Shown piece after piece: positions 11,456 to 33,205 of a stretch of DNA of 64,000 nt. How positions within the stretch are numbered: the stretch's first letter is position 1; each line of letters starts with the position of its first letter. The DNA comes from an uncultured Pelagibacteraceae bacterium. GTDB taxonomy: Bacteria > Pseudomonadota > Alphaproteobacteria > Pelagibacterales > AG-422-B15. The position numbers were made by a program, and so were the translations under genes. The stretch lies in NCBI GenBank assembly GCA_902517885.1, contig CABYDZ010000004.1, forward strand, positions 101,964 to 165,963. The letters run 5' to 3'. The notes under the pieces are model-generated. The model ran no database searches. It saw only the letters and a program-made list of their open reading frames with translations, and was not told the DNA's origin.

Positions 11456-13228
11456 TTGCTTCAGAATAATAAAAAAAAAGTATTTTTTGCAACCTCAAAT
11501 ATTGAAGAATATTGGGACAAAGAATATCCAATATTATTTTCAGGACATTGGTGTTTAAACAATAAAGATTACTTTGTAAAATCTCAACTTGATATCATCC
11601 CATACCAATGGAATGATTCAAAAAAAGTAATTGAGGCTCAATTGTATTGTGAAAAAGTATTTGAAGAAATTTTAATTAAAATTACTGGCGAACTAAATAA
11701 GTTCCTTAATTTAAAGAATAGTTCAAAATATTATAGAATTCTTCTTGGCAATTGGCTTATTCATTACATACATCAATGTTATGATAAATATACCTGTATA
11801 AACAAAGCTAAAGAAAATTTTGATATCTTTACCCACTATATTGAAAAAAAAGAAGATGAAGACAATATCCCATACGATTTTGATGAATTTATTAGTTCTA
11901 GCTTAAATCCAGAATATCAAGTTCAATTATTTTCAGAACTATTTATGATAATGAACATTGAATTAAAAAAAATTAAAAACAATCCAAACAATATATATCT
12001 TCATAGCAATATTAAACCATCTTTATTTGGAAAAATTAGGAATTGGTTAATTTTTATAAAAAATAGCCTGTCTTATTTTATTCTTCTACTTTTGAAAAGA
12101 ATTCATAAATCTATAGTTATAATCAGTAATCCATATTTCAAATTTAATTCAGTTAAAAATAAAATTAATGTTTTTATAAGATCAAAAGGAAGAATCTTCT
12201 TTTATAATCCTATTTTAAGTAGGCCTTTTGTAAGAAAAAAAATAATGAAGAAATTTAGAAATTCAGAAGCAAACAAACCCAACAAATTTGAGGAAATTAT
12301 TTATAACCTAGTGAAAAAAAATATTCCCAAAGTTTATTTAGAACATCACAGTGATTATTATGAGCACGTAAAAAAATTCTATAACTTCAAAAATAATGAT
12401 ATTTCTTGGCTATCATTTCAATGGAGTGGGAATACAGTTTTTCAATATATCGCCGCTATAACTTACAATCATTCTAATATATTATTAGCTCAGCATGGAT
12501 CGGGGTATGGAATGGATAAAATTCATTCGCTTGAAAATAATGAGCGATCTATATCTAATAAATATTATACCTATGGTTGGAAAGATAGCAGTCAAACCAT
12601 TCCTTTGTCACTTCCTAATATTAAAGTTCATAAAAATATAGATTTAAGTAAGAAGGCAATATTATTTGTCAATACAACACGTCCGCTGCATTTGGTGAGG
12701 TTTCATAATGGATCAAATTCTAGTCAAAATTTAATTGACAATGTTGAATCGCCAATTATTTTTTTGAATCATTGCAAATTTACAAAATATGTAATCGGCA
12801 GATTCCATTCATCAGATTCTGAAAGATGGAATAATTATCAAAGAATTAATAAACATTTCCCACTTTTAAAAAGAGATAGAAATAAGAGTTTTTATAAATC
12901 TCTTAAAGAAATTAGGATGGTAGTCTCAGATCATTTAGGAACTACTTTCTATGAAAGTTTACAAGCTAATGTTCCCATAATTATTTTTATTAATCCACAA
13001 ACATATACTTTTAGAGACCAAGCAGAAAATTTGATTGAAAAATTAATCAAAAATAAAATTATTTTTTTTGATCCAAAGGAAGCTTCTTTGCATGTTAACG
13101 AAGTCTATCAAGATATAAACACCTGGTGGAGTTCAAGTAAAATTCAATCATTAAGAGAGGAAGTATTAAGAAAACATTGTTATACTTCGAATAATTGGAT
13201 TAATGATTGGTACAAAAAACTATTATGA
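11456..13228 (+). CDS. LIC12162-like putative surface carbohydrate transferase (TTG start in ORF track)
   Basis: Starts KKVFFATSNIEEYWDKEYPILFSGHWCL; ILLAQHGSGYGMDKIHSLENNERSISNKYYTYGW; VVSDHLGTTFYESLQANVPIIIF. Confidence 0.8.
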   Translation: MLQNNKKKVFFATSNIEEYWDKEYPILFSGHWCLNNKDYFVKSQLDIIPYQWNDSKKVIEAQLYCEKVFEEILIKITGELNKFLNLKNSSKYYRILLGNWLIHYIHQCYDKYTCINKAKENFDIFTHYIEKKEDEDNIPYDFDEFISSSLNPEYQVQLFSELFMIMNIELKKIKNNPNNIYLHSNIKPSLFGKIRNWLIFIKNSLSYFILLLLKRIHKSIVIISNPYFKFNSVKNKINVFIRSKGRIFFYNPILSRPFVRKKIMKKFRNSEANKPNKFEEIIYNLVKKNIPKVYLEHHSDYYEHVKKFYNFKNNDISWLSFQWSGNTVFQYIAAITYNHSNILLAQHGSGYGMDKIHSLENNERSISNKYYTYGWKDSSQTIPLSLPNIKVHKNIDLSKKAILFVNTTRPLHLVRFHNGSNSSQNLIDNVESPIIFLNHCKFTKYVIGRFHSSDSERWNNYQRINKHFPLLKRDRNKSFYKSLKEIRMVVSDHLGTTFYESLQANVPIIIFINPQTYTFRDQAENLIEKLIKNKIIFFDPKEASLHVNEVYQDINTWWSSSKIQSLREEVLRKHCYTSNNWINDWYKKLL

Positions 13229-14677: not shown

Positions 14678-15328
14678 ATGTCAAAATTGAAAAAAATTTC
14701 TGTAATAATACCTGTTTACAATCAAGAAAGATATTTGGCTAGATGTCTTCACTCAATTTTATCGCAAACTTTTAATGATGATCATTTCGAAGTAATAGTT
14801 ATTAATGACGCAAGTACAGACAGTACACTTTTTGTTTTAGAGCAATTTAAAAAAAATATTAAAATTATTAATAATAAAAAAAATATTGGATTGCCTGGAA
14901 GTTTAAATCTTGGAATTAAAAATTCAAATGCACAATACATTGTTAGGTTAGACAGTGATGACTATGTTAATGATAAGTTTTTAGAAATTTTATATATGTT
15001 TGCAAACTATAATTCTAAAATAAATGCCTTTGCGTGTGACTATCACCTTATAGATGAGAATGAGCAAATAATAGAAACTGCTAACTGTATGGAAAAACCT
15101 ATCGGCTGCGGAATCATTTTTCGAAGACAAGATTTAATAAAAATCGGAATGTATGATGAAGAGTTTTTGATAAATGAGGAAAAAGATTTAAGGTCAAGGT
15201 TTGAAACTGAATTCTTAATAAATAGAATTGAATTACCACTTTATAGATATCGTAAACATGAAACAAATATGACAAATAATAAAAATGCAATGAGTCATTA
15301 CAATAAAAAACTTAAAGAAAAAAAATGA
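14678..15328 (+). CDS. Glycosyltransferase family 2
   Basis: KISVIIPVYNQERYLARCLHSILSQTF...VIVINDASTDST...YIVRLDSDDYV. Confidence 0.93.
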   Translation: MSKLKKISVIIPVYNQERYLARCLHSILSQTFNDDHFEVIVINDASTDSTLFVLEQFKKNIKIINNKKNIGLPGSLNLGIKNSNAQYIVRLDSDDYVNDKFLEILYMFANYNSKINAFACDYHLIDENEQIIETANCMEKPIGCGIIFRRQDLIKIGMYDEEFLINEEKDLRSRFETEFLINRIELPLYRYRKHETNMTNNKNAMSHYNKKLKEKK

Positions 15329-16392
15329 TTCAAAATTCTATTTTTTCCAGAAATGTATATAAACACTCTCCTTATATAATAGCTGAAATCGGTGTAAATC
15401 ACGAAAATTCATATGACACAGCTGTCAAGATTATTGATTTAGCAAAGGAAGGTGGTGCTGATGCAGTTAAATTTCAGAGTTACAAGGCTGATCTACTTGC
15501 GTCAAAAGACTCCCCCGCATATTGGGATACAAATAAAGAAAAAACATTAAATCAGAATGAACTATTCAAGAAATATGATAGTTTTAATGAAAACGAATAT
15601 ATAAAATTATCTGAATATTGTAAAAAAATTAATATTCAATTTCTTTCAACGCCATTCGATATACATTCAGTTGCTTATCTAGATCCAATTGTACCATTTT
15701 TCAAAATAGCTTCTGCTGACATAAATAATTTTCAGTTATTAGAGAGAGTTTCTAAGACTAATAAGCCAATAATATTATCAACTGGTGCATCCAATTTAGA
15801 TGAAATTGATCAAGCTATAAAAATATTAGAAAAAACTGCAAAAAAAGATATTTGCTTAATGCATTGCATCTTAAATTATCCTACAGAAAATATAAATGCT
15901 AACCTTTCGATGATTAAGAGTCTTCAAAAAAAATTTCCTGAAAGAGTAGTAGGATATTCTGACCATACATTGCCTGACGAAAAAATGAGATCAATAGTCT
16001 TGGCTTATTTGCTTGGAGCTACTGTTATTGAAAAACATTTCACTCATGACAAAAGTCTTCCTGGAAACGATCATTATCATGCAATGGATTTCAATGATTT
16101 AAAAATATTAAGATCGGAAATTAATCAAATTGAAGAACTTATAGGAAATGAGGATGAAAAAAAATCTATACCTAGTGAGGAATTATCAAGACTCAATGCA
16201 AGGAGAAGTATTGTTACTAGTAGAAAATTATCAAAAGGTCATGTAATTGACGAATTTGATATAGTTTGTAAAAGGCCTGGCTCAGGAATTACAGCAAATA
16301 ATTGGTATAAAGTTATTGGAAGTCACGTATTGGATGATTTACCTGAAGATTATTTAATAAAGTGGTCTGACTTAAAGATTGTTGGGGAATAA
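15325..16392 (+). CDS. N-acetylneuraminate/nonulosonate synthase family (NeuB/SpsE) with C-terminal SAF domain
   Basis: PYIIAEIGVNHENSYDTAVKIIDLAKEGGADAVKFQSYKADLLAS...VVGYSDHTLPDE...VIEKHFTHDKSLPGNDHYHAMDFNDL...NARRSIVTSRKLSKGHVID. Confidence 0.95.
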   Translation: MIQNSIFSRNVYKHSPYIIAEIGVNHENSYDTAVKIIDLAKEGGADAVKFQSYKADLLASKDSPAYWDTNKEKTLNQNELFKKYDSFNENEYIKLSEYCKKINIQFLSTPFDIHSVAYLDPIVPFFKIASADINNFQLLERVSKTNKPIILSTGASNLDEIDQAIKILEKTAKKDICLMHCILNYPTENINANLSMIKSLQKKFPERVVGYSDHTLPDEKMRSIVLAYLLGATVIEKHFTHDKSLPGNDHYHAMDFNDLKILRSEINQIEELIGNEDEKKSIPSEELSRLNARRSIVTSRKLSKGHVIDEFDIVCKRPGSGITANNWYKVIGSHVLDDLPEDYLIKWSDLKIVGE

Positions 16393-17231: not shown

Positions 17232-17990
17232 ATGAAAAATATAGTTTATAAAGAAAAAGATATAAAAGAATATTTCTCAAAAGATCGAGTCAAATGGGAG
17301 CAGTTTTATGAATCGGAGAAGAAAGTTATTCAAAAAACTCTACATGGATTGGAGAATATATTAGAAAAAGTGTCAGTGTTAGATGTTGGATGCGCTTGTG
17401 GTGGTCTAGGAATCGCATTGAGAGAAAAATTTAATATAGTTAATTATACAGGCATAGAAATAAATCATCAAGCAGCTAAATACGCTAAACAAATAAATCC
17501 AGATTTTCAAATTATTGAAGGGGATTTTTTAGAAGTATCAAAAAAAGTAAAAGATAATTATTACGACCTCGCCTTTTCGTTTAGTTGTATCGACTGGCAA
17601 AATAATTTTAATCTTATGCTGAACGAACTTTTTGCTAAGGTTAAGCCTGGTGGCAATTTATTAGTAAGCCTGAGACTTACAACAGAAAAAAGTATTAATG
17701 ACATAAATAAATCATATCAATATATAAATTATGATGGGAACAAGATAGGTGAGAAAGCTCCTTATGTAATTTTTAATATTAATGATCTTTTGGGTAATTT
17801 CAAAATACTCAATATAAATGATTTATATGCGTATGGGTATAATGGAAGACCTAGTGAAACTTCTGTAACCCCATATAAGGAGCTTTGTTTTTGTGTTTTT
17901 TCTCTACAGAAATCAATTAATGGTATGAAAAATAATAAATTAAAAATGGAGATAGATTTACCAAATAATATAGTTAATGAAATTAAATAA
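17232..17990 (+). CDS. Class I SAM-dependent methyltransferase
   Basis: VLDVGCACGGLGIALREKF ... YTGIEINHQAAKYAKQ ... YDLAFSFSCIDWQNNFNLMLNELFAKVKPGGNLLVSLR. Confidence 0.85.
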   Translation: MKNIVYKEKDIKEYFSKDRVKWEQFYESEKKVIQKTLHGLENILEKVSVLDVGCACGGLGIALREKFNIVNYTGIEINHQAAKYAKQINPDFQIIEGDFLEVSKKVKDNYYDLAFSFSCIDWQNNFNLMLNELFAKVKPGGNLLVSLRLTTEKSINDINKSYQYINYDGNKIGEKAPYVIFNINDLLGNFKILNINDLYAYGYNGRPSETSVTPYKELCFCVFSLQKSINGMKNNKLKMEIDLPNNIVNEIK

Positions 17991-18008: not shown

Positions 18009-19088
18009 ATGGTAAAAGATTTACTTCGAAATGGATTGAATAATGAGTCTTTAAATAGGCCCTTTGGATGGGACTCTAAGCCCAGAGATAAAAGTCTTTT
18101 ATGGTTAGATAAAAATGAAAATGTTGATGTATTATATAATAATTTTATGTCTGAGATACCATCAACAATTTCAATAGATAATATTAATTGTTATCCAGAG
18201 CCAGCAAAACTTTATTATAAGTTATCTGAAATTGACGGTCTGAGTCCTGAATCGTTTATTTTAACACCTGGAAGTGATGGTGCAATTAGCAGTACCTTTA
18301 ATGTTTTTCTAAATAAAGATGACAAGGTACTTATAACAAAGCCAACTTTTGCTATGTATAGTATTTATTGTAAAGTTTATAATACAAAAGTGGATTATCT
18401 TGAATATGAGAGAGATCTAAATTGTCCATATATTAACCTTGATAAAATAATTAAAATATTGAATAAAACTAAGCCTAAATTATTTTGTCTTCCAAATCCA
18501 GATAGTCCAACAGGATCAATTTTGCACCCAGACGAACTTACTAAATTAATAAAATTATGCGATAAGCTAAATATTATTATTCTTATTGATGAAGCTTATT
18601 ATCCTTATTATGATGAATCAGTTATAGAAAAGACAAAACACTTCCAAAATTTAATTGTTGCACGAACATTTTCAAAAGCTTGGGGACTGGCTGGTCTTAG
18701 GCTTGGCTATGCTGTAGGTAATCCCAAAACTATTGAATACTTTCATAAAATTAAACCGATGTATGAAATTGGAAGTTACAGTATAGCTTTTATTGAAAAA
18801 GCAATTGACTTTGAATATAAAATGAGAGAGTCAGTGAAACGAATAATGATGGGCAAAGAATATTTTATAAATGAATTAAAAAAATTAGGTTTTCATACTT
18901 TGGTAACACAGGGTAATTTTCTACATGTAAATTTTGGTGATAGATCTAATTTGATACATAATTCATTAGAGAGCAAGGTACTATACAGGAAATCCTTTAA
19001 TGAAGAATGTTTAAGAGGTTTTTCAAGATTTACTGCTACCACAAAAGAAAATTTTATTCCAATTATCAAAATATTAAAAAATCTATGA
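18009..19088 (+). CDS. Class I/II PLP aminotransferase (HisC-like)
   Basis: CYPEPAKLYYKLSEIDGL...LTPGSDGAI...CLPNPDSPTGS...LIDEAYYPYY...RTFSKAWGLAGLRLGYAVGN. Confidence 0.9.
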   Translation: MVKDLLRNGLNNESLNRPFGWDSKPRDKSLLWLDKNENVDVLYNNFMSEIPSTISIDNINCYPEPAKLYYKLSEIDGLSPESFILTPGSDGAISSTFNVFLNKDDKVLITKPTFAMYSIYCKVYNTKVDYLEYERDLNCPYINLDKIIKILNKTKPKLFCLPNPDSPTGSILHPDELTKLIKLCDKLNIIILIDEAYYPYYDESVIEKTKHFQNLIVARTFSKAWGLAGLRLGYAVGNPKTIEYFHKIKPMYEIGSYSIAFIEKAIDFEYKMRESVKRIMMGKEYFINELKKLGFHTLVTQGNFLHVNFGDRSNLIHNSLESKVLYRKSFNEECLRGFSRFTATTKENFIPIIKILKNL

Positions 19089-19105
19089 AACGGTAAACTT
19101 TAATT

Positions 19106-20194
19106 ATGAAAAGTACGAATATAGGTCTAATAGGCTGTGGGCGCATAGCAGGACACCACTGCAGAGCTATTACTAAAAATAAAAATACTAATCTCATAGC
19201 AGTTTGCGATTTAGATTTAGATAAGGCTCAAAAATATGCTGATAAGTACAATGTCAGTGCATACACAAATTATAGAAAAATGCTTAGTGAAGAAAGTTTG
19301 ATAGATACTGTAGCAATAATAACACCGTCAGGCATGCACTATAAGCATGCACAAGAAATCATTAAAAACTATAAAAAAAATATTATTGTTGAGAAGCCAA
19401 CATTTTTAAAAATATCGCATTTTTATGAAATCCTAGAGCTTGCTAAAAGTTATAATTTAGAAGTTTTCCCAGTTTTCCAAAATAGACATAATTTAGCAGT
19501 TCAAAGAGTTAGGGACTCACTTTTAAAAAATGAGTTAGGTAAAATTAACTTAGTTTCGGTAAGAGTTAGGTGGTGTAGGCCGCAAAGATACTATGATCTT
19601 GCACCTTGGAGGGGAACTTTTGCTATGGACGGTGGTTGTTTAACCAACCAAGGAATCCATCATTTAGATCTTATGCGGTATCTCGGTGGAGAAATAAGTG
19701 ATGTTAATGCTACAATGAGAACATTCGAAGTAAATATTGAGGTTGAAGACGCTGTTGTTGGAACCGTTAGATACAAAAATGGATCAATTGGCACACTGGA
19801 GGTAACGACAGCTGCTAGACCTCAAGATTATGAAGCAAGTATATCAATTATTGGAAGCAAGGGCATGGCCCAAATTGGTGGTATTGCTGTAAATGAGCTT
19901 CAAATATTTACTCCTAATCCTGATGACTGCGCTAAGTTTTCAGAGGATTTTTCTGGATGCGTATATGGTAATGGCCATTACATTATATATGATGAGGTCA
20001 GTAATCATATGAACAAACTAAATAATTTTTCTGTAAATAATAATGATGCAATGAAAACTGTTGCATTACTTAATGCATTTTACAAAAGTCATGAAGAAAA
20101 TAGAAACATTGAATTATGTAATGATAAATTTATAGAAAGTACACATCTTGGAAAGTATGATAAAGATTTATCAGAACTTTATAGTTGTAAATGA
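19106..20194 (+). CDS. Gfo/Idh/MocA family oxidoreductase
   Basis: NIGLIGCGRIAGHHCRAI...VAIITPSGMHYKHAQEIIKN...IIVEKPTF...DGGCLTNQGIHHLDLMRYLGG. Confidence 0.93.
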   Translation: MKSTNIGLIGCGRIAGHHCRAITKNKNTNLIAVCDLDLDKAQKYADKYNVSAYTNYRKMLSEESLIDTVAIITPSGMHYKHAQEIIKNYKKNIIVEKPTFLKISHFYEILELAKSYNLEVFPVFQNRHNLAVQRVRDSLLKNELGKINLVSVRVRWCRPQRYYDLAPWRGTFAMDGGCLTNQGIHHLDLMRYLGGEISDVNATMRTFEVNIEVEDAVVGTVRYKNGSIGTLEVTTAARPQDYEASISIIGSKGMAQIGGIAVNELQIFTPNPDDCAKFSEDFSGCVYGNGHYIIYDEVSNHMNKLNNFSVNNNDAMKTVALLNAFYKSHEENRNIELCNDKFIESTHLGKYDKDLSELYSCK

Positions 20195-20961
20195 CAAAAA
20201 TAATCGGAATTGTTCCAGCAAGAATGAAGGCCTCAAGATTTTATGGCAAACCAATGCATAATATTTTAGATAGGCCAATGCTTGAACATGTTTACCTCAG
20301 AGCAAAAAAATTTAAAGATTGGACAAATATCACTATTGCAACTTGTGACGAAGAAATTGTCAAATTCTCTAATATTCACAATTTTCCCTCAATTTTAACA
20401 AGCCCAAATCATACAAGAGCATTGGATAGAGTTGCTGAGGCTGCCCCTAAAGTAGATGAAAGTCTAAATCCAAACGATATTGTTGTATGCGTTCAAGGAG
20501 ATGAGCCAATGCTTGAACCTGAAATGATAGAGACAGTAATTGATCCATTATTTAAATCAGAGAGTATTCCATGTACAGTTTTAGCAATGCACATAACTGA
20601 TGAGAAACAGTGGTTAAATAAAGACACAGTCAAAATAATTCATAATAATGAGGGAAAAGTTCTTTATACAACAAGAGTGCCAGTTCCATTTTCAAAAGAT
20701 CCATTTTCACCAGATTTACTAGCAAGAAGGATATATGGAATTTTTGCATTTCGTTATAAATACTTAGAAAAGTTCGTAAATCACCATGAAACGAGGCTTG
20801 AGAAAGTCGAAGCTTGCGATAGTAATAGAATTTTAGATATGAGCTTTGATCAATATATTGCCCCTTATCCATCAAGAAGATCTTTTTCGGTTGATAGTCC
20901 TGAAGATATTTCATTGGTAGAAATGCATATGAAAAACGATAAATATCACGGAACTTATTAG
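20191..20961 (+). CDS. KdsB-like CMP-sugar-acid cytidylyltransferase (substrate probably not Kdo)
   Basis: IIGIVPARMKASRFYGKPMHNILDRPMLEHVYLRAK; VCVQGDEPMLEPEMIE; GIFAFRYKYLEKF; canonical HxSGTERLAE region is replaced by HTRALDRVAEAA. Confidence 0.85.
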   Translation: MTKIIGIVPARMKASRFYGKPMHNILDRPMLEHVYLRAKKFKDWTNITIATCDEEIVKFSNIHNFPSILTSPNHTRALDRVAEAAPKVDESLNPNDIVVCVQGDEPMLEPEMIETVIDPLFKSESIPCTVLAMHITDEKQWLNKDTVKIIHNNEGKVLYTTRVPVPFSKDPFSPDLLARRIYGIFAFRYKYLEKFVNHHETRLEKVEACDSNRILDMSFDQYIAPYPSRRSFSVDSPEDISLVEMHMKNDKYHGTY

Positions 20962-20974
20962 TAATATTATTTTA

Positions 20975-21997
20975 ATGAAAAAATTAAGAGTAGGAATTGT
21001 TGGATATGGTATTGTTGGAAAAAGGAGAAGGGAATATATAGATAGAAATAAGTATTTAAAAACTATTGCTGTCAGTGATATAAATTTTAAGAAAGATGGA
21101 GCATATTCAAGTGGCCTATTATATTTCAATGATTACAAAAAAATATTTTCAGCTAATTTAGATATTTTATTTGTATGTCTTCCAAATCGTTATGCACCTA
21201 AGGCTACAATCGCTGGTCTAAATAATAATTTACATGTTTTTTGTGAAAAGCCTCCTGGTAGATCTGTAAATGACATAAAAGAGGTAATAAAAATAAAAAA
21301 AAAGAAAAAAAAACTTAAACTTAAATATGGATTTAATCATCGGTATCATGACTCGATTATTGATGCTAAAAAAATTATTGATTCCAATAAATTTGGAAAA
21401 ATAATAAATTTTAGAGGTGTCTATGGGAAGAGTGCGATTATACCATTTACAGGAGAATGGAGATCTAAAAGATCAGAGGCCGGAGGTGGTATATTATTAG
21501 ACCAAGGAATACACATGCTAGATATGATGCTCTATTTTTCAGACGAATTTGTCAAAGTTCATAGTTTTGTAAAAAATAACTTTTGGAACCATGATGTAGA
21601 AGATAATGCGTACACTATTATGGAGAGTAAAAAGGGAATCATAGGTATGCTTCATTCAACCGCTACAGAATGGAGACATAAGTTCAGATTAGAAATTACA
21701 CTAGAAAAAGCTCAACTAGAATTAAGTGGTATTCTGTCTGGCTCAAAGAGTTATGGTGAAGAAAAATTAATTATTACGAAGAAAAAAAATTCTCGAAACA
21801 ATAAAATACCTAAAGAAAAAGTTCACAGATATTTAACGGATAAATCATGGAAGCGAGAGATTGATGAATTTGCATCTTGTATAATAAACAATAAAGTTAT
21901 AGAAAATGGGAATAGTAATGATGCATTAAATGTTATGAAGCTAATTCAAAAAATTTATAAATCAGATTCTATTTGGAAAAAAAAGTTCACCATATGA
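20975..21997 (+). CDS. Gfo/Idh/MocA family oxidoreductase (second copy)
   Basis: LRVGIVGYGIVGKRRREYID...LFVCLPNRYAPKATIAGLNNNLHVFCEKPPGRS...AGGGILLDQGIHMLDMMLYF. Confidence 0.92.
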   Translation: MKKLRVGIVGYGIVGKRRREYIDRNKYLKTIAVSDINFKKDGAYSSGLLYFNDYKKIFSANLDILFVCLPNRYAPKATIAGLNNNLHVFCEKPPGRSVNDIKEVIKIKKKKKKLKLKYGFNHRYHDSIIDAKKIIDSNKFGKIINFRGVYGKSAIIPFTGEWRSKRSEAGGGILLDQGIHMLDMMLYFSDEFVKVHSFVKNNFWNHDVEDNAYTIMESKKGIIGMLHSTATEWRHKFRLEITLEKAQLELSGILSGSKSYGEEKLIITKKKNSRNNKIPKEKVHRYLTDKSWKREIDEFASCIINNKVIENGNSNDALNVMKLIQKIYKSDSIWKKKFTI

Positions 21998-22605
21998 AAA
22001 GTATAAAAACTATTTCCAGTCAATCAAATTCACCAAGTGAATTCATGAGTCAATATATTAGCTATCTAAAAGATGTATTATCTAACATTGATGTAAAACA
22101 AGTTGATAAATTAGCCTTGTCTCTAGAAAAGGCGAGAAGAAATGGAAATACAATCTTTATTATTGGAAATGGAGGCTCAGCAACTACTGCTAGTTCTATG
22201 GCTAACGATTTAGGATTTGATATAATCAAAAAAACGAAAACAAAAAAACCATTTAAATTTTTATCACTTACAGACAACAATTCTGTAATAACAGCGATAG
22301 CCAATGATGTTGGATATGAAGAAGTATTCGTAAATCAATTAAAGATTCATTATAGAAAAGGTGATCAGCTTATAATAATATCTGCAAGTGGTAATTCGCC
22401 TAACTTAGTCAGTGCTGCAAAATGGTTTAAATCTCAAAAAGGAAAAGTAATCTCATTCTTAGGGTTTGATGGTGGCAAACTAAAAAGAATCTCTGATATA
22501 ATATTACATGCTAAGACCGAAAAAGGTGATTATGGTCCAGTTGAAGACTCACATCTTATTATTAACCATGTATTAGCTCATTGGTTTCAGGCATCAATTA
22601 AATAA
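21973..22605 (+). CDS. SIS-domain sugar isomerase (GmhA-like)
   Basis: ARRNGNTIFIIGNGGSATTASSMANDLG...DQLIIISASGNSPNLVSAAKWFKSQKGKVISFLGFDGG...VEDSHLIINHVLAHWF. Confidence 0.9.
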   Translation: MEKKVHHMKSIKTISSQSNSPSEFMSQYISYLKDVLSNIDVKQVDKLALSLEKARRNGNTIFIIGNGGSATTASSMANDLGFDIIKKTKTKKPFKFLSLTDNNSVITAIANDVGYEEVFVNQLKIHYRKGDQLIIISASGNSPNLVSAAKWFKSQKGKVISFLGFDGGKLKRISDIILHAKTEKGDYGPVEDSHLIINHVLAHWFQASIK

Positions 22606-22620
22606 ATTAAGTAAAACTTA

Positions 22621-23532
22621 ATGTCAAAAAAAGTACTCATAGGCCCTTCTTCATTTGGTGAAGTTAGTTCCGAGCCATTAAAAAAACTGGTAGAGGCTGG
22701 TTTTGAGGTTGTAAACAACCCTTTTAAAAGAAAGTTATCAAAAAAAGAAGTTAAAGAGTTACTAAAAGATAGGGACATAGTTGGTTTATTGGCTGGACTA
22801 GAGACCTTAGATGATGAAGTTCTATCATTTTCAAATCTCAAAATAATTTCAAGGGTTGGATCTGGTACATCTAATGTGAACAAACAAGCCGTAGATAAGA
22901 ATAAAATAAAACTTTATTCAGTGCCTAACGGACCAGCAAATTCAGTTGCAGAGTTAACAATTGGCAACATAGTAAATTTATTTAGGAATATAATACCTAT
23001 GAACAATAGCTTGCATAACGACAATTGGAAACGACAAATAGGACGTGAGATTAATGGAAAATCTTTTTTAATAATTGGGTTAGGAAGGATAGGTAAAAAA
23101 GTTGCCAGCTTGTTGAAGACTTTAGGTGGAAAAATATATGTTTATGACCCCTTTGTTGATCAAAAAGAATTCATAGAGCAGTATAGTTTTATTGACTTAT
23201 ATCAAGGTTTATCTCTTGCTGATTTAATTACCATTCATGTAAGTGGAGAAGAGTGTATGATCTCAAATAAAGAGTTTTCAAGCATGAAACAAGGAGTGCT
23301 TGTATGCAATGCATCAAGGGGTGGAGTAATTGATGAGAACGAATTAATAAACGCTATAAATAATAAAATTGTAGCTGGCGCCTGGATAGATGCTTTTGTT
23401 GAGGAGCCTTACTATGGTAAAATGAAAGACCTTAAAGAAATAATTCTCACTCCCCATGTAGGCTCATATACAATCGAGTGCAGGCAAAACATGGAAATGG
23501 AAGCAACATTAAATTTAATTAAAAATATATGA
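22621..23532 (+). CDS. D-isomer-specific 2-hydroxyacid dehydrogenase (phosphoglycerate dehydrogenase-like)
   Basis: KIISRVGSGTSNVN...VAELTIGNIVNLFRNI...SFLIIGLGRIGKKVA...GVLVCNASRGGVIDENEL...LTPHVGSYT. Confidence 0.92.
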   Translation: MSKKVLIGPSSFGEVSSEPLKKLVEAGFEVVNNPFKRKLSKKEVKELLKDRDIVGLLAGLETLDDEVLSFSNLKIISRVGSGTSNVNKQAVDKNKIKLYSVPNGPANSVAELTIGNIVNLFRNIIPMNNSLHNDNWKRQIGREINGKSFLIIGLGRIGKKVASLLKTLGGKIYVYDPFVDQKEFIEQYSFIDLYQGLSLADLITIHVSGEECMISNKEFSSMKQGVLVCNASRGGVIDENELINAINNKIVAGAWIDAFVEEPYYGKMKDLKEIILTPHVGSYTIECRQNMEMEATLNLIKNI

Positions 23533-24266
23533 AAATTGATTTCAATAATAAAACTGTACTTATTACGGGTGCAAGTAGAGGTATAGGAAAGGAAATTGCA
23601 AAAGAATTTTTTAGATTAGGTGCAAACATAATATCAACTAGCACTAAACCTATCAAAATAAGAATTCCTAAAAATAAAAGAAATAGATGGAAGCATATTG
23701 TTGTAGATTTTGCTGATGAAATAGCCCTTAAAGGTTTTTTTAAAGAATTAATTAATATAAAGAGAATTGATATTTTAATAAATAATGCTGGAATAAATGA
23801 AATTAATACATTTACAGAAGTAAAAAAAAATGACTTTCTTAGGATAAATAAAGTAAATTTATCCACTCCTTTTTTGATATCACAAAAAATTGCGCAAAAA
23901 ATGATACGAAATAAAAGTGGAAAAATAATTAATGTATCTTCAATATTTGGCATAATCAGCAAAAAAAAAAGAGCATCTTATTCAACTTCAAAGGCAGGAT
24001 TAATTGGACTAACCAAAGCTATGGCATTAGATCTTGCTAGTCATAATATTCTGGTAAATTCTGTATCACCTGGTTTTGTATCCACTGAATTAACAAAAAG
24101 AATACTTAATAAAAATGAAAAAAATGAATTAAGAAAAAATGTTCCAATCAGTAGATTTGCTGAAAGTTCAGAAATTGTTTATTTAGTATTATATCTTTGC
24201 AGTAAATATAATACTTACCTCACTGGACAAAATATTGTTATTGATGGTGGCTATACAATTCAATAA
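23529..24266 (+). CDS. Short-chain dehydrogenase/reductase (FabG-like)
   Basis: KTVLITGASRGIGKEIAKEF...DILINNAGINE...YSTSKAGLIGLTKAMALDLASHNILVNSVSPGFVSTEL. Confidence 0.95.
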   Translation: MKIDFNNKTVLITGASRGIGKEIAKEFFRLGANIISTSTKPIKIRIPKNKRNRWKHIVVDFADEIALKGFFKELINIKRIDILINNAGINEINTFTEVKKNDFLRINKVNLSTPFLISQKIAQKMIRNKSGKIINVSSIFGIISKKKRASYSTSKAGLIGLTKAMALDLASHNILVNSVSPGFVSTELTKRILNKNEKNELRKNVPISRFAESSEIVYLVLYLCSKYNTYLTGQNIVIDGGYTIQ

Positions 24267-24267
24267 G

Positions 24268-25344
24268 ATGACACTCCCAAAAAAAATAACTATTAATTCT
24301 AGATCTTCGAATTATTTTATTGAGTTTAAAAAAGCCAATAGAAGAAATTTTATTGATAATATAGAGATTGGTGACATCATAATTATTGATAAAAAGGTGC
24401 AGAGTATGCATAAATTAAATTCAATATTACCAAAAAATAGTATTATCAAAATCTCTGCAAATGAAAAAAGTAAATCATTTGAAAACTTAGACAAAGTTAT
24501 CAGAAAAATTTTGTTCTATGGTTTTAAGAAAAATAATAAATTAATTATAATTGGCGGAGGAATTTCGCAAGATATAGGAAGTTTTATTTCCTCAATAATT
24601 TTTAGAGGAGTAGACTGGATATTCTATCCAACCTCATTTTTATCTCAATGTGATAGTTGTATAGGGGGTAAAACATCCATAAATTTTCATGAATACAAAA
24701 ATCAGTTAGGTAACTTTAACCCACCCAAGAAAATAATTATTGATATTAATTTTTTAAAATCTCAATCAAATAAAGAAATACGGTCTGGAGTGGGAGAGAT
24801 GGCGCATTATTTTCTTGTCTCAGGGAATGATGATACGAATTATTTTTTGAAAAATTTCAAAAGAGTTATTGTTGGGGAAAAAAAGATTTCAGAAACTATG
24901 ATTAATAAGTCTTTAAAAATTAAAAAGTACTTTATTGAAAAAGATGAGTTCGATAGAAAGGAAAGATTATTACTTAATTATGGTCATACTTATGGTCATG
25001 CACTAGAGGCATTAACTAAATATCATATACCTCACGGTATTGCTGTTGCACATGGAATTAATATAGCAAATTATATTTCATATAAAAAAAGATTCATAAA
25101 AGAAAATTATTTTTTAAAAATTAAAGAATGTATGGATTATATTATTGATAACAATAATCCAAAAATATTTGATATTAACAAATACTTGAGCTTTCTTAAG
25201 AAGGATAAAAAAAATATTAACAGTAACTTAAGATGTATATTAACTAAGGGGCCAGGAAAAATGTTTATTCATGAAATTAAGTTTGACGAAAATTTAATTA
25301 GTTACCTTAAAGAATACTTTAATAATTTTTTGATAAAGAATTAA
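24268..25344 (+). CDS. 3-dehydroquinate synthase-like sugar-phosphate cyclase (AroB superfamily); likely start ATG 24268 (MTLPKK) rather than ORF-track 24235
   Basis: IIGGGISQDIGSFISSIIFRGVDWIFYPTSFLSQCDSCIGGKTSIN...SGVGEMAHYF...LLNYGHTYGHALEALTKYHIPHGIAVAHGI; metal-ligand E/H/H positions present. Confidence 0.88.
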   Translation: MTLPKKITINSRSSNYFIEFKKANRRNFIDNIEIGDIIIIDKKVQSMHKLNSILPKNSIIKISANEKSKSFENLDKVIRKILFYGFKKNNKLIIIGGGISQDIGSFISSIIFRGVDWIFYPTSFLSQCDSCIGGKTSINFHEYKNQLGNFNPPKKIIIDINFLKSQSNKEIRSGVGEMAHYFLVSGNDDTNYFLKNFKRVIVGEKKISETMINKSLKIKKYFIEKDEFDRKERLLLNYGHTYGHALEALTKYHIPHGIAVAHGINIANYISYKKRFIKENYFLKIKECMDYIIDNNNPKIFDINKYLSFLKKDKKNINSNLRCILTKGPGKMFIHEIKFDENLISYLKEYFNNFLIKN

Positions 25345-25347
25345 ATT

Positions 25348-26457
25348 ATGAAACCTCAGTTATCCAATTTTCAAAATATTTTTAAAGGCAAAAAAGTTAT
25401 TATTACAGGACATACAGGATTTAAAGGAACATGGCTTACAATGTGGCTTTTAATGTTGGGAGCAAAAGTGAAGGGTATTGCCTTAAATCCATATTCTAAT
25501 CCATCCCATTATAAAAAGTTAAAACTTTCTAAAATGATAATTGATAAAAGATTTAATATTCTAGATAGAAAACGTCTCACAAAAGAGATAATCCAATTTA
25601 AGCCTGACTTTGTTTTTCACTTAGCTGCACAAGCTTTAGTTAAATCTTCCTACACTGATCCAATTTCCACTTGGGATACCAATTTAAGTGGGACCATAAA
25701 TGTTATTAGTGCTTTGAGAAAACTAAAGAGTAAGTGTGCAGCTGTAATAGTCACTAGCGATAAGTGTTATAAGAATAAAGAAATTAAAAGAGGGTATAGG
25801 GAAAATGACGAGCTAGGAGGTTATGATCCCTACAGTGCTTCAAAAGGGGCTGCTGAAATTGCAATTCAATCGTATATAAAATCATTCTTCAACAGAAACA
25901 CCAATACAAAAGTATCAATTGCTATTGGTAGGGCAGGAAATGTTATCGGTGGCGGTGACTGGTCCAAAGACAGGATACTTCCAGATTGTATAAGATCCTG
26001 GTCAAAAAACAAAAAAGTAATAATGAGAAGTCCATATTCAACAAGACCATGGCAACATGTACTCGAGCCGTTGAGTGGCTACTTAACCTTAGCACAAAAT
26101 CTTGAATATAATTATAAGCTTCATGGCGAGGCATTTAATTTCGGCCCTAAAGAGACATTAAGCAGATCTGTAATGGATCTTGTAAAAGAAATGTCTTTAT
26201 ACTGGCAGAATGTTAAATGGAAAATAGTTCATGATAAAAAAATAAAGGAGGCAGGGTTACTAAAGCTTAATTGTAAAAAAGCTAGGGACTTACTGCAATG
26301 GAAATCAAATATGAATTTTTCTCAAACAGTAAAATTAACTGCAAACTGGTATAAAGATTTTTATAATAAAAATTCTGATGTTCCCCATATAACAAAACAG
26401 CAAATAATATTATTCGTTAGCCTTGCAAAAAAAAATAAACTTATTTGGAGTAAATAG
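25348..26457 (+). CDS. rfbG: CDP-glucose 4,6-dehydratase (RfbG-like)
   Basis: KKVIITGHTGFKGTWLTMWLLMLGAKVKGIAL...VFHLAAQALVKSSYTDPISTWDTNLSGTINV...GYDPYSASKGAAEIA...RAGNVIGGGDWSKDRILPDCIRSW. Confidence 0.93.
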   Translation: MKPQLSNFQNIFKGKKVIITGHTGFKGTWLTMWLLMLGAKVKGIALNPYSNPSHYKKLKLSKMIIDKRFNILDRKRLTKEIIQFKPDFVFHLAAQALVKSSYTDPISTWDTNLSGTINVISALRKLKSKCAAVIVTSDKCYKNKEIKRGYRENDELGGYDPYSASKGAAEIAIQSYIKSFFNRNTNTKVSIAIGRAGNVIGGGDWSKDRILPDCIRSWSKNKKVIMRSPYSTRPWQHVLEPLSGYLTLAQNLEYNYKLHGEAFNFGPKETLSRSVMDLVKEMSLYWQNVKWKIVHDKKIKEAGLLKLNCKKARDLLQWKSNMNFSQTVKLTANWYKDFYNKNSDVPHITKQQIILFVSLAKKNKLIWSK

Positions 26458-26879
26458 TGTTAGATCAAATTAAATTACATAATCTTAAAAATATCAAGCT
26501 TCAAAATGGTAATGTCATGCATGCACTAAAAAAAAGTGATAACGACTTTATTAAATTTGGAGAAATATATTTTTCATGGATAAAAAAAAATAAAATTAAG
26601 GCATGGAAATATCATTTAAAAATGAATATAAATTTTATAGTTCCAGTAGGGGAAGTACTATTTGTTTTTCACGACTACAAAAATAATAGGTTTAGAGAAA
26701 TAGTAATTGGAACAAAAAATTATGCCAGAGTCTTTGTACCTCCTAAAATATGGTTTGGATTTAAAAATATATCTCCCTCAGATAGTTTAGTTGTTAACGT
26801 AGCAAGTATTGAACATAATGACAATGAAGTGCGAACCAAAAACATAGAAGATATTAATTTTGATTGGAAAAATTTTTAA
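26457..26879 (+). CDS. RmlC-like cupin (dTDP-4-dehydrorhamnose 3,5-epimerase-related)
   Basis: GEIYFSWIKKNKIKAWKYHLKMNINFIVPVGEVLFVFHDYKNNRFREIVIGTKNYARVFVPPKIWFGFKNIS. Confidence 0.8.
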   Translation: MLDQIKLHNLKNIKLQNGNVMHALKKSDNDFIKFGEIYFSWIKKNKIKAWKYHLKMNINFIVPVGEVLFVFHDYKNNRFREIVIGTKNYARVFVPPKIWFGFKNISPSDSLVVNVASIEHNDNEVRTKNIEDINFDWKNF

Positions 26880-27583
26880 TGAAAGTAGTTATCCTTGCAG
26901 GTGGCTTAGGTACAAGATTAGCAGAATACACACATCGTATCCCAAAGCCAATGGTTGAGATTGGTGGAATACCTATTTTAGTTCACATAATGGAGTTTTA
27001 TTCTAGTTTTGGGCATAATGATTTTTATATTGCTTTAGGTTACAAAGGAGACATGATTAAAGATTACTTTAAAAGCTATAAAAGAAGTGATTGGCATATC
27101 AATTTAATAGACACAGGCCAAAATACTTTAACTGGAGGTAGGTTAAAACGGTTAGAGGAATTTTTAGCTCAAGAAACTTTTTTTCTGACATATGGAGATG
27201 GATTGAGTAATGTTAATTTAGACTCCCTTTTAAGATTTCATAATAATTCTAAAAAGCTTATTACAATGTCAGCCGTGAGACCCCCTGCAAGGTTTGGTGA
27301 ATTAGAATTTAATGGCGATGAAGTAATTGGATTTGATGAAAAACCTCAAATGCAGAGAGGATGGATTAATGGTGGGTTTTTTGTGGTAGAGTCAGGTTTT
27401 ATTAAATATATAGATGGTGATAACACAATGCTTGAGAGAGAACCTCTTAGTACAGCACTTAATAACTCTCAGATGGGAGCTTATAAACATAATGGACTTT
27501 GGCAGTGTATGGATACGAAGAGAGAGCATGAAAAACTTATTTCTATTTGGGAGTCTGGTAGCGCTTTCTGGAAAATGAAATAG
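26864..27583 (+). CDS. rfbF: Glucose-1-phosphate cytidylyltransferase (RfbF-like)
   Basis: MKVVILAGGLGTRLAEYTHRIPKPMVEIGGIPILVHIMEFY...NLIDTGQNTLTGGRLKRL...YGDGLSNVNLDSLLRFH...ERPxxLW-like NGLWQCMDTKRE. Probable real start ATG 26879 (MKVVI). Confidence 0.93.
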   Translation: MEKFLMKVVILAGGLGTRLAEYTHRIPKPMVEIGGIPILVHIMEFYSSFGHNDFYIALGYKGDMIKDYFKSYKRSDWHINLIDTGQNTLTGGRLKRLEEFLAQETFFLTYGDGLSNVNLDSLLRFHNNSKKLITMSAVRPPARFGELEFNGDEVIGFDEKPQMQRGWINGGFFVVESGFIKYIDGDNTMLEREPLSTALNNSQMGAYKHNGLWQCMDTKREHEKLISIWESGSAFWKMK

Positions 27584-28513
27584 ATGAATGTACTCATTTT
27601 AGGTGGATCAGGATACATTGGAGAAAGATTAACCGAGCTGCTTATTAGTAAAAAATATAACGTTTCAGTTGCAACAAGAAAAAGTCGCAAAATACTTAAC
27701 CCAAAAATCAATAAATTATTTGAGATCGATTGGAATAATCTATCCTCTTTACGAGATGCTTGTGAGGGCAATGAAATAATCATTAATGCAGCTGGTGCAA
27801 GTTCCAAAGAATCTGAAGAAAACTATGAAGAAGTAATTAATTTTTCAAAAATAGGCACTACTAATTTGATTAAGGCTGCAACAATGCAATCTGTAAAAAA
27901 GATTTTTTATCTATCTACAGCACATGTTTATTCTAGTCAAATGACTGGTAAAATTAATGAAAACGCAAAATTAAAAAATAATTCTCCATATGCACTTGCT
28001 CATTCCATTGCTGAAAAAATAACTCTAGAAGCACAATATAAGAGTATCATTGAGACAAAAGTATTAAGGTTAGCCAATTGTTTTGGTGCACCAGTAAGTA
28101 TAAATTCAAACTGTTGGTACATTTTAATAAATGAAATTTGTAAGCAGGCTATTATAGAGAAGAAAATTAATATCAGATCTAAAGTAAATAATGTAAGAAA
28201 TTTTGTACCTATCACTACAGTTATTAATTTCATTGAGTATCTAATTGAATTTGACAAATTTGAGCTTCCTCAATTAATAAATGTAGGTGAAAGATATTCT
28301 TTATCAATTGAAGACGTAGTTAGCAGGGTTATTGCGCGATTAGAGGCAAAACTGAATATCACCCCTGAAGTGGAATTTCATTTTGAAAAACAAAATGCTC
28401 AATTCTTAGATTATGAGACACTTATTTTAAAACAAATGGGCTTCGATAAGTATTTTTCCTTTGAAAATGAAATTGATAACTTGATTATTTATTGCAATGA
28501 GCATTTTAAGTAA
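27584..28513 (+). CDS. NAD-dependent epimerase/dehydratase (extended SDR)
   Basis: NVLILGGSGYIGERLTELLISKK...IIINAAGASS...YLSTAHVYSS...YALAHSIAEKITLEAQ. Confidence 0.88.
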   Translation: MNVLILGGSGYIGERLTELLISKKYNVSVATRKSRKILNPKINKLFEIDWNNLSSLRDACEGNEIIINAAGASSKESEENYEEVINFSKIGTTNLIKAATMQSVKKIFYLSTAHVYSSQMTGKINENAKLKNNSPYALAHSIAEKITLEAQYKSIIETKVLRLANCFGAPVSINSNCWYILINEICKQAIIEKKINIRSKVNNVRNFVPITTVINFIEYLIEFDKFELPQLINVGERYSLSIEDVVSRVIARLEAKLNITPEVEFHFEKQNAQFLDYETLILKQMGFDKYFSFENEIDNLIIYCNEHFK

Positions 28514-30410: not shown

Positions 30411-31353
30411 GTGTGATTTTTGTAACAGTGAAAATAGTACTCTTTTCGCACAACAGAAAGATCTTTTACACAGACAAACAAGTAAAATTTTTAATGTTGT
30501 CAAATGTAATAATTGTGGTTTGGTTTACACTAATCCTAGACCAACTATAGACGAAATTACAGAATATTATTCCGATGAATATTATGCTCACGAGCAGAAA
30601 AATGGTAATAATATTTTATTTTTGTTTCTAAAAAAATTTTTGATTAATGATTTCACTTTAAAAATCTTTGCTCATATTCCCATTTTAAATTCTAAGCTCA
30701 AATTAAATATTTTGCCAAAATTAAGGTATCCTATTGAAAAAAAGAAAAATATGGCTTTTTTAGATATTGGTTGTGGAAATGGAAATAATACTCATATCTG
30801 GGGTGCTCAGCACACATTGAGGAGCTATCAAAAAGTTTCTACTTCTTTATATGGAGTTGAGCCAAATTTACATGCTTATAATCAATTAAAATATCTTTGT
30901 AATGCTTATCAAGATATTGATCAAATTCCTAAAGAAATTAAGTTTGATGTAATAAGATTAAACTGGTCTCTTGAGCATGTTCACTCACCAAGTAAATATT
31001 TTCAATTTCTATATGAAAGATTGAGAGATGATGGGCGAGCAATAATATGTGTTCCGAATATTGATGGAAATATTTACAAAGAGGATTCTTCAATGCTAGA
31101 GTTGCCAATACATCTATTTCATTTTAATTTCCAATCAATAAATAATTATTGCAATAAGTTTAATTTGTGTATCGAAGATCACATGACTTTTTCTTATGCT
31201 TCAATGTATTATTACGCATCAACAATAAATAGTAATTTTGATAAATATAGAAATATGAGTCTTGCAGGCCTTCTGGAAATGCAAACAGAATTTGATAATA
31301 TTAATGATCTAAGTGGCAATGACATTGTATTTAAAATAAAAAAAAATGGATAA
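30397..31353 (+). CDS. Class I SAM methyltransferase with N-terminal zinc-binding-like CxxC..CxxC segment; start ATG 30397
   Basis: MEKIKCDFCNSENSTLFAQQKD...VVKCNNCGLVYTNPRPT...FLDIGCGNGNNTHIW...LNWSLEHVHSPSKYFQFLYERLRDDGRAIICVPN; ORF-track start 30268 lies inside the upstream membrane protein gene. Confidence 0.88.
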   Translation: MEKIKCDFCNSENSTLFAQQKDLLHRQTSKIFNVVKCNNCGLVYTNPRPTIDEITEYYSDEYYAHEQKNGNNILFLFLKKFLINDFTLKIFAHIPILNSKLKLNILPKLRYPIEKKKNMAFLDIGCGNGNNTHIWGAQHTLRSYQKVSTSLYGVEPNLHAYNQLKYLCNAYQDIDQIPKEIKFDVIRLNWSLEHVHSPSKYFQFLYERLRDDGRAIICVPNIDGNIYKEDSSMLELPIHLFHFNFQSINNYCNKFNLCIEDHMTFSYASMYYYASTINSNFDKYRNMSLAGLLEMQTEFDNINDLSGNDIVFKIKKNG

Positions 31354-33205
31354 AAAATTTGTACTTAATTGGGATCAAAATACTCAAATTAAGGATGAGA
31401 TTTCGATAATAAAATTTGTAGAAGAAAATGATAATATCATAAGAGATCGATACAATGAATTTATCGATGATGTAGGTCTAAAAAATTTTAAAAATAAAAA
31501 ATTCTACAAATATTTTAATTTCTTTAAAGGTTATAATTTGTGGTGGATGTCACTTATTTTTGAAAAAAGTAATTATAAATCTGATGGACCTAATAATTCA
31601 ATTAAGCTTATCGCGATTGAAGAAATTATAAAAAAAAATAATCCAAAAAAAATACACTTTGTATGTAGTGACCTTAATATTATAGGTATAGTAAGGACAC
31701 TTTGTAAAAAATACAACATTATTTTGTTAATAGTTAAAAATAACGTACAGGTAAATTATAATTTAAGTAAGAATTTTTTACCTAATTTTTTAAAAGTGAT
31801 TTTATATGCTATATCTTTTTACTTCTATAGACGTCCATTAATCAAAATATCAAAATCAAAAGAAATTTTAAAAAAATATGATATTATTTTTTTTTCATAT
31901 TTTAATAAAGCTTCAGAGAATAATAGTAAATTAAAAATTGATTATAGTAGTCAATTTGGCAATCTACCAGATTTAATCAAAGATCAGGGTTTCACTTCTT
32001 ATTGGATGAGTCATTACGTATCTGACTTTGATAATCAAAACCCAAAGATTACATCTAGTATCATTAATGGCACAAATTTAAATGAAAATTTCGACTTTCA
32101 TGATTGTTTAGATAGTTTTTTAAGTATTAAATTAATTATACAATCCATAATTATATATTTTAAAATTTATTTAAGATTTATTTTTAAAAGAAATATAAAA
32201 AAGTTATTTGAGCCTGTGGGATCGAATCTCTCGTTGTGGAAAGTTCTAAGAGATGATTTTAATAAGTCAATTTATGGAGTAATTTGCTTTAAAAATATAT
32301 TATGGTCATTACAAATTGATAAATTTTTGTCTGAGTTACCAACCCAAAAATTAATGATTTATCTTATGGAAAATCAGGGATGGGAAAGAGCCCTACTTCA
32401 TGGATGGAGAAAACATGGACACAAGACGATAATTGGATATCAATATGGGATTCTACGTTATTGGGATCTTCGATATTACACATCGTTTATAAACAAAAAT
32501 AAACATGAATTTATAGATTTCCTTCAGCCAAATTACGTAGCTACTTCTAGTGAGGTCGCACATAAATTATTTCTTGAAATGGGTTATAATAGAAATGATT
32601 TAATTAAAGTAGAAAATTTAAGATATAATCATTTATTTGATAAAAATAAAGTATCAATGGTAAGCAGAAAACAGCTACAACAACCTGTTTCTGATCAAAC
32701 AGCGCAATACAATGATAGAATTAAAATTCTGATACTTTTCGATATTGACATGGCTATAAATAAACAGCTGATTCAAATTATTAATAAGATCGGAAATACC
32801 AAGAAACATATTGAATGGCATGTAAAATTTCATTCTGGCAAATATTTTGCTCATAAAGATATGATTAACCATAAAGTAAAAATAGTTAATGGTTTATTAA
32901 TTAATATTTTAAAAAATTACGATCTTGCTCTTACAGTTTCCAATTCAGGTGCATCAATTGACGCATACATTTTGCAAATTCCATTAATAATCTTTAAAAG
33001 TAATTCTAATATTGATTTTTCGCCCTTTAAAAAATTTTCTAATTCTGTTTTATTTGTTAATAATGAAAACGAATTGCGGGAATATTTAATTTCCTTCAAA
33101 ATAGATCAAAAAAATAATATTTATAAGAATAACTTAATTTGGCATGATCCTGGTCTGACAAAATGGAAAAATTTTTTAATAAAAGTACAAAATAAGCTTT
33201 TATGA
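31346..33205 (+). CDS. Putative surface carbohydrate biosynthesis transferase (LIC13510-like)
   Basis: 619 aa; YLMENQGWERALLHGWRKHGHKTIIGYQYGILRYWDLRYYTS...PNYVATSSEVAHKLFLEMGY...TVSNSGASIDAYILQIPLIIF. Confidence 0.6.
   Translation: MDKKFVLNWDQNTQIKDEISIIKFVEENDNIIRDRYNEFIDDVGLKNFKNKKFYKYFNFFKGYNLWWMSLIFEKSNYKSDGPNNSIKLIAIEEIIKKNNPKKIHFVCSDLNIIGIVRTLCKKYNIILLIVKNNVQVNYNLSKNFLPNFLKVILYAISFYFYRRPLIKISKSKEILKKYDIIFFSYFNKASENNSKLKIDYSSQFGNLPDLIKDQGFTSYWMSHYVSDFDNQNPKITSSIINGTNLNENFDFHDCLDSFLSIKLIIQSIIIYFKIYLRFIFKRNIKKLFEPVGSNLSLWKVLRDDFNKSIYGVICFKNILWSLQIDKFLSELPTQKLMIYLMENQGWERALLHGWRKHGHKTIIGYQYGILRYWDLRYYTSFINKNKHEFIDFLQPNYVATSSEVAHKLFLEMGYNRNDLIKVENLRYNHLFDKNKVSMVSRKQLQQPVSDQTAQYNDRIKILILFDIDMAINKQLIQIINKIGNTKKHIEWHVKFHSGKYFAHKDMINHKVKIVNGLLINILKNYDLALTVSNSGASIDAYILQIPLIIFKSNSNIDFSPFKKFSNSVLFVNNENELREYLISFKIDQKNNIYKNNLIWHDPGLTKWKNFLIKVQNKLL

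Follow-up and report, generated by a model that had tools for sequence, protein, structure and literature searches.

Gene content of the locus

An eight-gene block (positions 18009-25344, + strand) that ends in a gene for an enzyme related to 3-dehydroquinate synthase (DHQS, AroB), here called CYC, lies within a 64,000-nucleotide stretch of the genome of an uncultured Pelagibacteraceae bacterium. We refer to this whole stretch as the window. As the original prediction proposed, all eight open reading frames are present and co-directional, gaps or overlaps between them are at most ~25 bases, and Pfam and NCBIfam assign them to the expected families: a HisC-like aminotransferase (AT; Aminotran_1_2), two Gfo/Idh/MocA dehydrogenases (MocA1 and MocA2; GFO_IDH_MocA), a KdsB-like cytidylyltransferase (CTP_transf_3), a GmhA-like isomerase (SIS_2), a D-2-hydroxyacid dehydrogenase (2-Hacid_dh), a short-chain dehydrogenase/reductase (SDR) and CYC (DHQ_synthase and DHQS_C) (Table 1). 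The gapless run goes on past CYC (25348-28513) with genes for a CDP-glucose 4,6-dehydratase, a 140-aa protein, a glucose-1-phosphate cytidylyltransferase and an epimerase. A promoter scan gave no signal over the background level.

The window falls within a single contig of a 1.28 Mb genome that is 85% complete. Below, W denotes the window locus, L-numbers the loci of a genome scan, G-numbers genomes and G000 the window's own genome. The closest syntenic relative, the Pelagibacteraceae genome AG-895-F07 (L023), has an identical gene order.

Table 1. Coordinates of the block and of co-linear and nearby genes, with the profile matches on which the assignments rest
Feature	Position	Strand	Basis
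NeuB-family synthase, possible 3-deoxy-ulosonate-forming step	15325..16392	+	TIGR03569 315 bits; PF03102
S-adenosylmethionine (SAM) methyltransferase, probable accessory gene	17232..17990	+	Pfam Methyltransf; homologues flank the block in L023, L045, L026, L030, L041
HisC-like pyridoxal phosphate (PLP) aminotransferase (AT)	18009..19088	+	TIGR01141 214 bits, cut-off 276.6
Gfo/Idh/MocA dehydrogenase 1 (MocA1), proposed to form the ketone used by AT	19106..20194	+	Pfam/NCBIfam
KdsB-like cytidylyltransferase	20191..20961	+	TIGR00466 136.8 bits, cut-off 155.2
Gfo/Idh/MocA dehydrogenase 2 (MocA2), core gene	20975..21997	+	Pfam/NCBIfam
GmhA-like SIS-domain sugar-phosphate isomerase, core gene	21994..22605	+	SIS_2; TIGR00441 92 bits, cut-off 209
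D-2-hydroxyacid dehydrogenase (PGDH-like)	22621..23532	+	2-Hacid_dh
SDR reductase, immediately 5' of the AroB-like gene	23529..24266	+	adh_short
AroB-like putative sugar phosphate phospholyase (CYC), TIGR04425 clade	24268..25344	+	TIGR04425 382 bits; TIGR01357 246
CDP-glucose 4,6-dehydratase (RfbG), co-linear	25348..26457	+	TIGR02622 464 bits; SDR-CYC-RfbG order also in L023, L032
Glucose-1-phosphate cytidylyltransferase (RfbF), co-linear	26864..27583	+	TIGR02623 290 bits, cut-off 300; also in L023, L032

Paralogues of housekeeping enzymes

The HisC-, KdsB-, GmhA- and AroB-like proteins of the block each score below the curated cut-off of the corresponding housekeeping family (Table 1; for CYC, 245.8 bits against a TIGR01357 cut-off of 305), and canonical counterparts of three of the four are encoded elsewhere in the genome. 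These are an aroK-aroB pair (G000:C4:65416-66432, within C4:65-67 kb), a kdsB (C1:15 kb; TIGR00466 182.6 bits) and a hisC (C4:17962, at C4:18 kb; TIGR01141 322 bits). The block genes are specialised paralogues of housekeeping enzymes. The predicted replacement of the canonical KdsB motif is evident: HTRALDR and CDSNR in the window protein stand against HTSGTDR and LEQLR in the canonical KdsB of this genome (family consensus HxSGTxR and xEQLR), and the altered motif is common to most KdsB-like proteins of related loci.

The separate aroK-aroB pair rules out CYC as the genome's sole AroB, and, as anticipated, no shikimate gene lies beside CYC. A second, AroB-range match is likewise present in 10 of 15 genomes checked that carry a CYC-clade gene (several of the remainder are incomplete). 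Few of the window's own relatives carry the module: it occurs in 3 of 59 genomes, its own included. Many AroB-range matches from the same genus (G033, G027, G014 and other relatives) were flagged for one in-frame TAG, which may reflect a match overrunning the gene end. In the phage collection, AroB-type matches are distant only (<60% identical).

CYC belongs to a distinct clade that keeps a DHQS-like pocket

The best family for CYC is TIGR04425, an uncharacterised NCBIfam hypothetical equivalog named "AroB-related putative sugar phosphate phospholyase (cyclizing)". The window protein falls just short of the curated TIGR04425 cut-off of 400 bits, which homologues in conserved loci (Magnetospirillum, Zetaproteobacteria, Coxiellaceae, Cyclobacteriaceae and others) exceed at 434-473 bits. 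A maximum-likelihood tree places CYC with TIGR04425 members over the cut-off and apart from AroB (ultrafast bootstrap (UFBoot) 97, SH-aLRT 85; 36 clade rows and 28 AroB-side rows). CYC neither clusters with true AroB nor is the only copy in the genome, and the original view of it as distinct from the genome's AroB holds. We found the clade in nine phyla. A literature search with the TIGR04425 accession and name phrases found no paper.

The active site combines conservation with a few characteristic changes. Q101, D229 and H180 of the window protein stand where AroB has G, E and K. Two marks are clade-wide, GGGxxQD (GGGVxGD in most AroB) and KDEFD, that is, E260 to D; a K197-to-H change is limited to members from SAR11, Actinomycetota and Bacteroidota. 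When 14 DHQS pocket positions were compared (Aspergillus nidulans numbering; the list was checked against aligned DHQS sequences), 12 were unchanged in CYC, the exceptions being E260D and K197H. An AlphaFold2 model of CYC (mean predicted local distance difference test score, pLDDT, 88.8) has DHQS as its closest PDB structures.

In DHQS structures, K250 and R264 hold the substrate carboxylate. The CYC family retains both, together with N268 and H275, whereas in EEVS and DDGS (one reference each, taken from actinobacterial genomes and identified through the nearest PDB relative or a neighbouring gene) these four positions are M, D, D/A and S/P. Because these residues are kept here and lost in EEVS and DDGS, the sequence makes a carboxylated 3-deoxy-2-ulosonate phosphate a more likely substrate than sedoheptulose-7-phosphate, which the original prediction had put forward, and an EEVS/DDGS-like sedoheptulose-7-phosphate cyclase is disfavoured. 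Profile scores of CYC were 83 bits for ValA and 217 bits for the best DHQS; DOIS, compared by profile score alone, reached 125 bits (2d2x).

CYC occurs in two non-overlapping gene settings

Our genome scan comprised 46 loci, 35 of the CYC clade and 11 AroB controls; L057, L058 and L068, which are ordinary AroB or AroB in appearance, were used as controls. An SDR gene accompanies CYC in 34 of the 35 clade loci, MocA2 in 19, the SIS isomerase in 15, the D-2-hydroxyacid dehydrogenase in 14 and MocA1 in 8, and none of these occurs at any of the 11 AroB loci. Chance assembly of the block is ruled out, since the set recurs across many phyla; the recommended neighbourhood check recovers a core set in many genomes.

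CYC and SDR are found either with a cytidine monophosphate (CMP)-transferase (19 loci) or with a thiamine diphosphate (ThDP) enzyme (13 loci), and no clade locus has both. The first setting, to which the window belongs, has a KdsB-like or PseF-like enzyme, almost always with MocA2 (18 of 19 loci). A CMP-transferase of the KdsB/NeuA family is thus part of the conserved set, in keeping with the original idea of a dedicated, uncharacterised CMP-activated sugar pathway. In the second setting the partner is a ThDP enzyme resembling acetolactate synthase, and CDP-3,6-dideoxyhexose genes are usually present too.

An HpcH/HpaI-type aldolase lies near CYC in 21 of the 35 loci, across both settings. As for a pyruvate- or phosphoenolpyruvate (PEP)-dependent synthase or aldolase in the CMP-transferase loci, a NeuB gene lies upstream in W and L023 (it is absent there in most other loci), HpaI is found in 8 of 19, and none was seen in the rest.

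AT adjoins MocA1 in W, L023, L026, L041 and L045, and three SAR11 loci (L028, L031, L035) have a DegT aminotransferase and a formyltransferase at the same place. This exchange within related loci supports, at the level of sequence, the transamination step that had been predicted for the pathway. In L029, CYC occurs with an anomerase resembling NanQ (75 bits, cut-off 160) and with a member of an MptE-like Pfam family, a family related to the Maf-type transferases that act on nonulosonates. A B12-binding radical SAM protein adjoins the block in a Zetaproteobacterium (L045:1613-3415) and may modify the same sugar.

Clusters of the ThDP type occur in Prochlorococcus (L047, L051, L053, L066) and elsewhere (L038, L042, L048-L050, L052, L054-L056), combining CYC and SDR with the acetolactate-synthase-like ThDP enzyme, an HpcH/HpaI-like aldolase and RfbF/RfbG/RfbH. 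Such a gene content suggests that Prochlorococcus and other bacteria bear branched CDP-3,6-dideoxy sugars.

A mycobacterial locus of the caryophyllose type

One occurrence of the ThDP setting can be related to a known sugar. On the 6.45 Mb chromosome of Mycobacterium G407, genes for RfbF, a ThDP enzyme, an aldolase, an SDR, CYC and an FGGY kinase, with RfbH and RfbG alongside, adjoin a lipooligosaccharide locus of the polyketide synthase (PKS)-FadD-MmpL type. The AroB-like gene is present at >80% identity in 6 of 249 Mycobacterium genomes. Mycobacterial CYC loci (L100-L103 in G407, L101 in G331, L092 in G200) carry the ThDP enzyme, aldolase, SDR and FGGY kinase, and one is the lipooligosaccharide locus.

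The lipooligosaccharide of M. marinum holds caryophyllose, 3,6-dideoxy-4-C-[D-altro-1,3,4,5-tetrahydroxyhexyl]-D-xylo-hexopyranose (PMC5706390), to which the ThDP enzyme MMAR_2332 has been assigned (PMC12247030). This sugar has a methyl-ended branch and no carbocycle. The branch is the acyl unit of 4,5,6-trihydroxy-2-oxoheptanoate (3,7-dideoxyheptulosonate), the 7-deoxy counterpart of an acid like that of 3-deoxy-D-arabino-heptulosonate 7-phosphate (DAHP). Because the branch matches that acyl unit and the sugar lacks a carbocycle, the simplest role of CYC and SDR in G407, by analogy, would be to convert 3-deoxyheptulosonate-7-phosphate to the 7-deoxy acid.

Surroundings of the block

The window region is a large surface-polysaccharide island, as indicated by genes for a carbamoyltransferase (8170-9978), a LIC12162-family transferase (11456-13228), a TIGR04326-family surface carbohydrate protein (31346-33205) and a sulfotransferase (40062-40913). 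The surface-glycan context first suggested for the block is supported. An SpsF-like cytidylyltransferase (10727-11422) and the NeuB-family synthase suggest an additional nonulosonate pathway near the block. Shortly before the window (G000:C4:98672-100627) lie an additional GmhA-like SIS gene and an SDR, along with a partial match to a cytidylyltransferase; these probably represent another CMP-sugar pathway.

A candidate non-cyclising phospholyase in a proposed CMP-ulosonate pathway

Canonical DHQS uses up the 2-keto group of its substrate in ring closure. CMP-ulosonate synthetases and YerE/ErwE-type ThDP enzymes both require a free 2-keto acid (PMC12247030). Because the CMP-transferases and ThDP enzymes that are co-conserved with CYC need such an acid, ring closure by CYC is doubtful, and so, also in view of the carbocycle-free caryophyllose-type product, is the (amino)cyclitol originally envisaged. 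We tentatively favour a reading of the block as a surface-glycan pathway whose product is a methyl-ended 3-deoxy-2-ulosonic acid that bears an amino group and is activated with CMP, with CYC as a non-cyclising phospholyase; we consider it a serious possibility, if short of probable. This would be a form of CMP-ulosonate biosynthesis distantly related to the 3-deoxy-D-manno-oct-2-ulosonate (Kdo) and nonulosonate pathways. More speculatively, a subgroup of the DHQS superfamily might act as ring-free phospholyases that run the oxidation-elimination-reduction half of the mechanism, turn the CH2-O-phosphate end of a 3-deoxy-2-ulosonate into a methyl and feed terminal-deoxy 2-keto acids to both CMP-sugar and caryophyllose-like ThDP branching pathways.

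The steps might run as follows. The SIS isomerase would supply an aldose phosphate. In relatives the HpcH/HpaI aldolase would add pyruvate or PEP to it; in the window this may fall to the NeuB-like enzyme, unless DAHP itself is used. CYC would run the NAD+- and metal-dependent oxidation, phosphate elimination and re-reduction part of the DHQS mechanism, then quench the product by protonation at C7 in place of ring closure, giving a terminal-methyl 2,6-diketo acid. The SDR would reduce the newly made ketone, MocA1 and the aminotransferase would install the amino group, and the KdsB-like enzyme would form the CMP-sugar. Applied to the window, the mycobacterial model would lead to a terminal-deoxy ulosonic acid with an amino group, activated by CMP.

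Several points weigh against this proposal. The main chemical objection is that ring closure in DHQS is thought to be largely spontaneous after enol formation; a non-cyclising enzyme must therefore actively quench the enol, and we identified no residue in CYC that is known to do so. In the majority of loci that combine a KdsB-like transferase with an aminotransferase, no aldolase lies within 10 kb. Neither MocA2 nor the hydroxyacid dehydrogenase is firmly placed in the route. The kinship of G407 with the M. marinum group is inferred from the locus, and transferring function between CYC subclades is risky, as the window and mycobacterial proteins are only ~30% identical.

Alternative readings

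The resemblance of CYC to DHQS is also what would be expected if it forms a true carbocycle, closing a DHQ-like ring from a 3-deoxy-2-ulosonate-7-phosphate to give a quinate-type analogue of an ulosonic acid that is then reduced, aminated and CMP-activated. All pocket residues on the carboxylate and phosphate side are among the 12 retained, the nearest solved structures are DHQS, and quinate is geometrically a carba-analogue of a 3-deoxy-ulosonate, so that a KdsB-like enzyme might accept a quinate type. As the CMP ester of a tertiary alcohol that lacks an anomeric oxygen, the product would, however, be a poor glycosyl donor, and the need of the ThDP setting for a free 2-keto acid and the carbocycle-free caryophyllose-type product also leave this reading on the unlikely side, though still as a live rival. 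The retained pocket could also serve a second DHQS that makes ordinary 3-dehydroquinate for a shikimate- or quinate-derived decoration, and AroB paralogues likewise occur with a Gfo/Idh/MocA enzyme and an aminotransferase in aminoDHQS pathways of the 3-amino-5-hydroxybenzoate (AHBA) type. The separate clade with its Q101 and D229 changes, the score under the AroB cut-off, the block's lack of a dehydratase or shikimate-type gene and the canonical aroK-aroB pair make this quite improbable.

It is improbable, too, that the block joins two adjacent pathways, AT-MocA1-KdsB leading to a CMP-amino-ulosonate like 8-amino-3,8-dideoxy-D-manno-octulosonate (Kdo8N) and MocA2 through CYC (with the SIS isomerase, hydroxyacid dehydrogenase and SDR) together with RfbG-RfbF leading to another, CDP-linked sugar. 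SDR-CYC does adjoin RfbG-RfbF in W, L023 and L032, and AT-MocA1 is missing from some CYC loci; yet MocA2 accompanies CYC in nearly all CMP-transferase loci, most of them without RfbG, and the CMP-transferase and ThDP enzyme never share a CYC locus. Least credible is the cyclisation of sedoheptulose-7-phosphate or glucose-6-phosphate to a CMP-activated (amino)cyclitol by an EEVS/DOIS-like enzyme, as first predicted: the common superfamily and the presence of a GmhA-like isomerase and an aminotransferase in the block would fit it, but the retained K, R, N and H and the low ValA and DOIS scores speak against it. An Ebo-type cyclase (PMC5133447) was set aside, as its gene set differs. The paper on the bradyrhizose cluster does not mention a dehydroquinate synthase homologue.

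Relation to known systems

Were CYC a phospholyase that leaves the chain open, an orphan family of NCBIfam with members in many phyla would gain a reaction, and the methyl-ended six-carbon branch of caryophyllose a possible source. The surfaces of SAR11, Magnetospirillum and others would be predicted to carry CMP-activated amino ulosonic acids of a new class. It would also caution against reading every "AroB-like" gene of a surface-glycan cluster as a shikimate enzyme or a cyclitol synthase, since some may be neither.

The enzyme family is already known, by name only, as TIGR04425, with which the window CYC shares best family and clade at a score under the cut-off; in the literature searched we found no description of the conserved CMP pathway around it, whether or not a ring forms. 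CYC shares with AroB its fold, its metal ligands and almost all of the substrate pocket, but differs in its own clade, sub-cut-off score and non-shikimate neighbours, in clade-wide G-to-Q and E-to-D changes, and in the histidine at position 197 of the window's subclade. EEVS and DDGS share its superfamily, with the carboxylate- and phosphate-side residues replaced there and kept in CYC. The Kdo and Kdo8N pathways resemble the block in KdsB-family CMP activation, an SIS isomerase and an aminotransferase paired with a dehydrogenase, whereas the block has altered sugar-facing motifs, neither KdsA nor KdsC, and an added AroB-like enzyme. Finally, CYC and SDR, in places with the aldolase, occur in clusters of the caryophyllose, erwiniose and yersiniose kind, which join a CDP-3,6-dideoxy-4-ketohexose to a YerE/ErwE-like ThDP enzyme; those systems rely on a CDP-sugar and ThDP-dependent branching and have a more distant AroB-like subclade, whereas the window has a CMP-transferase.

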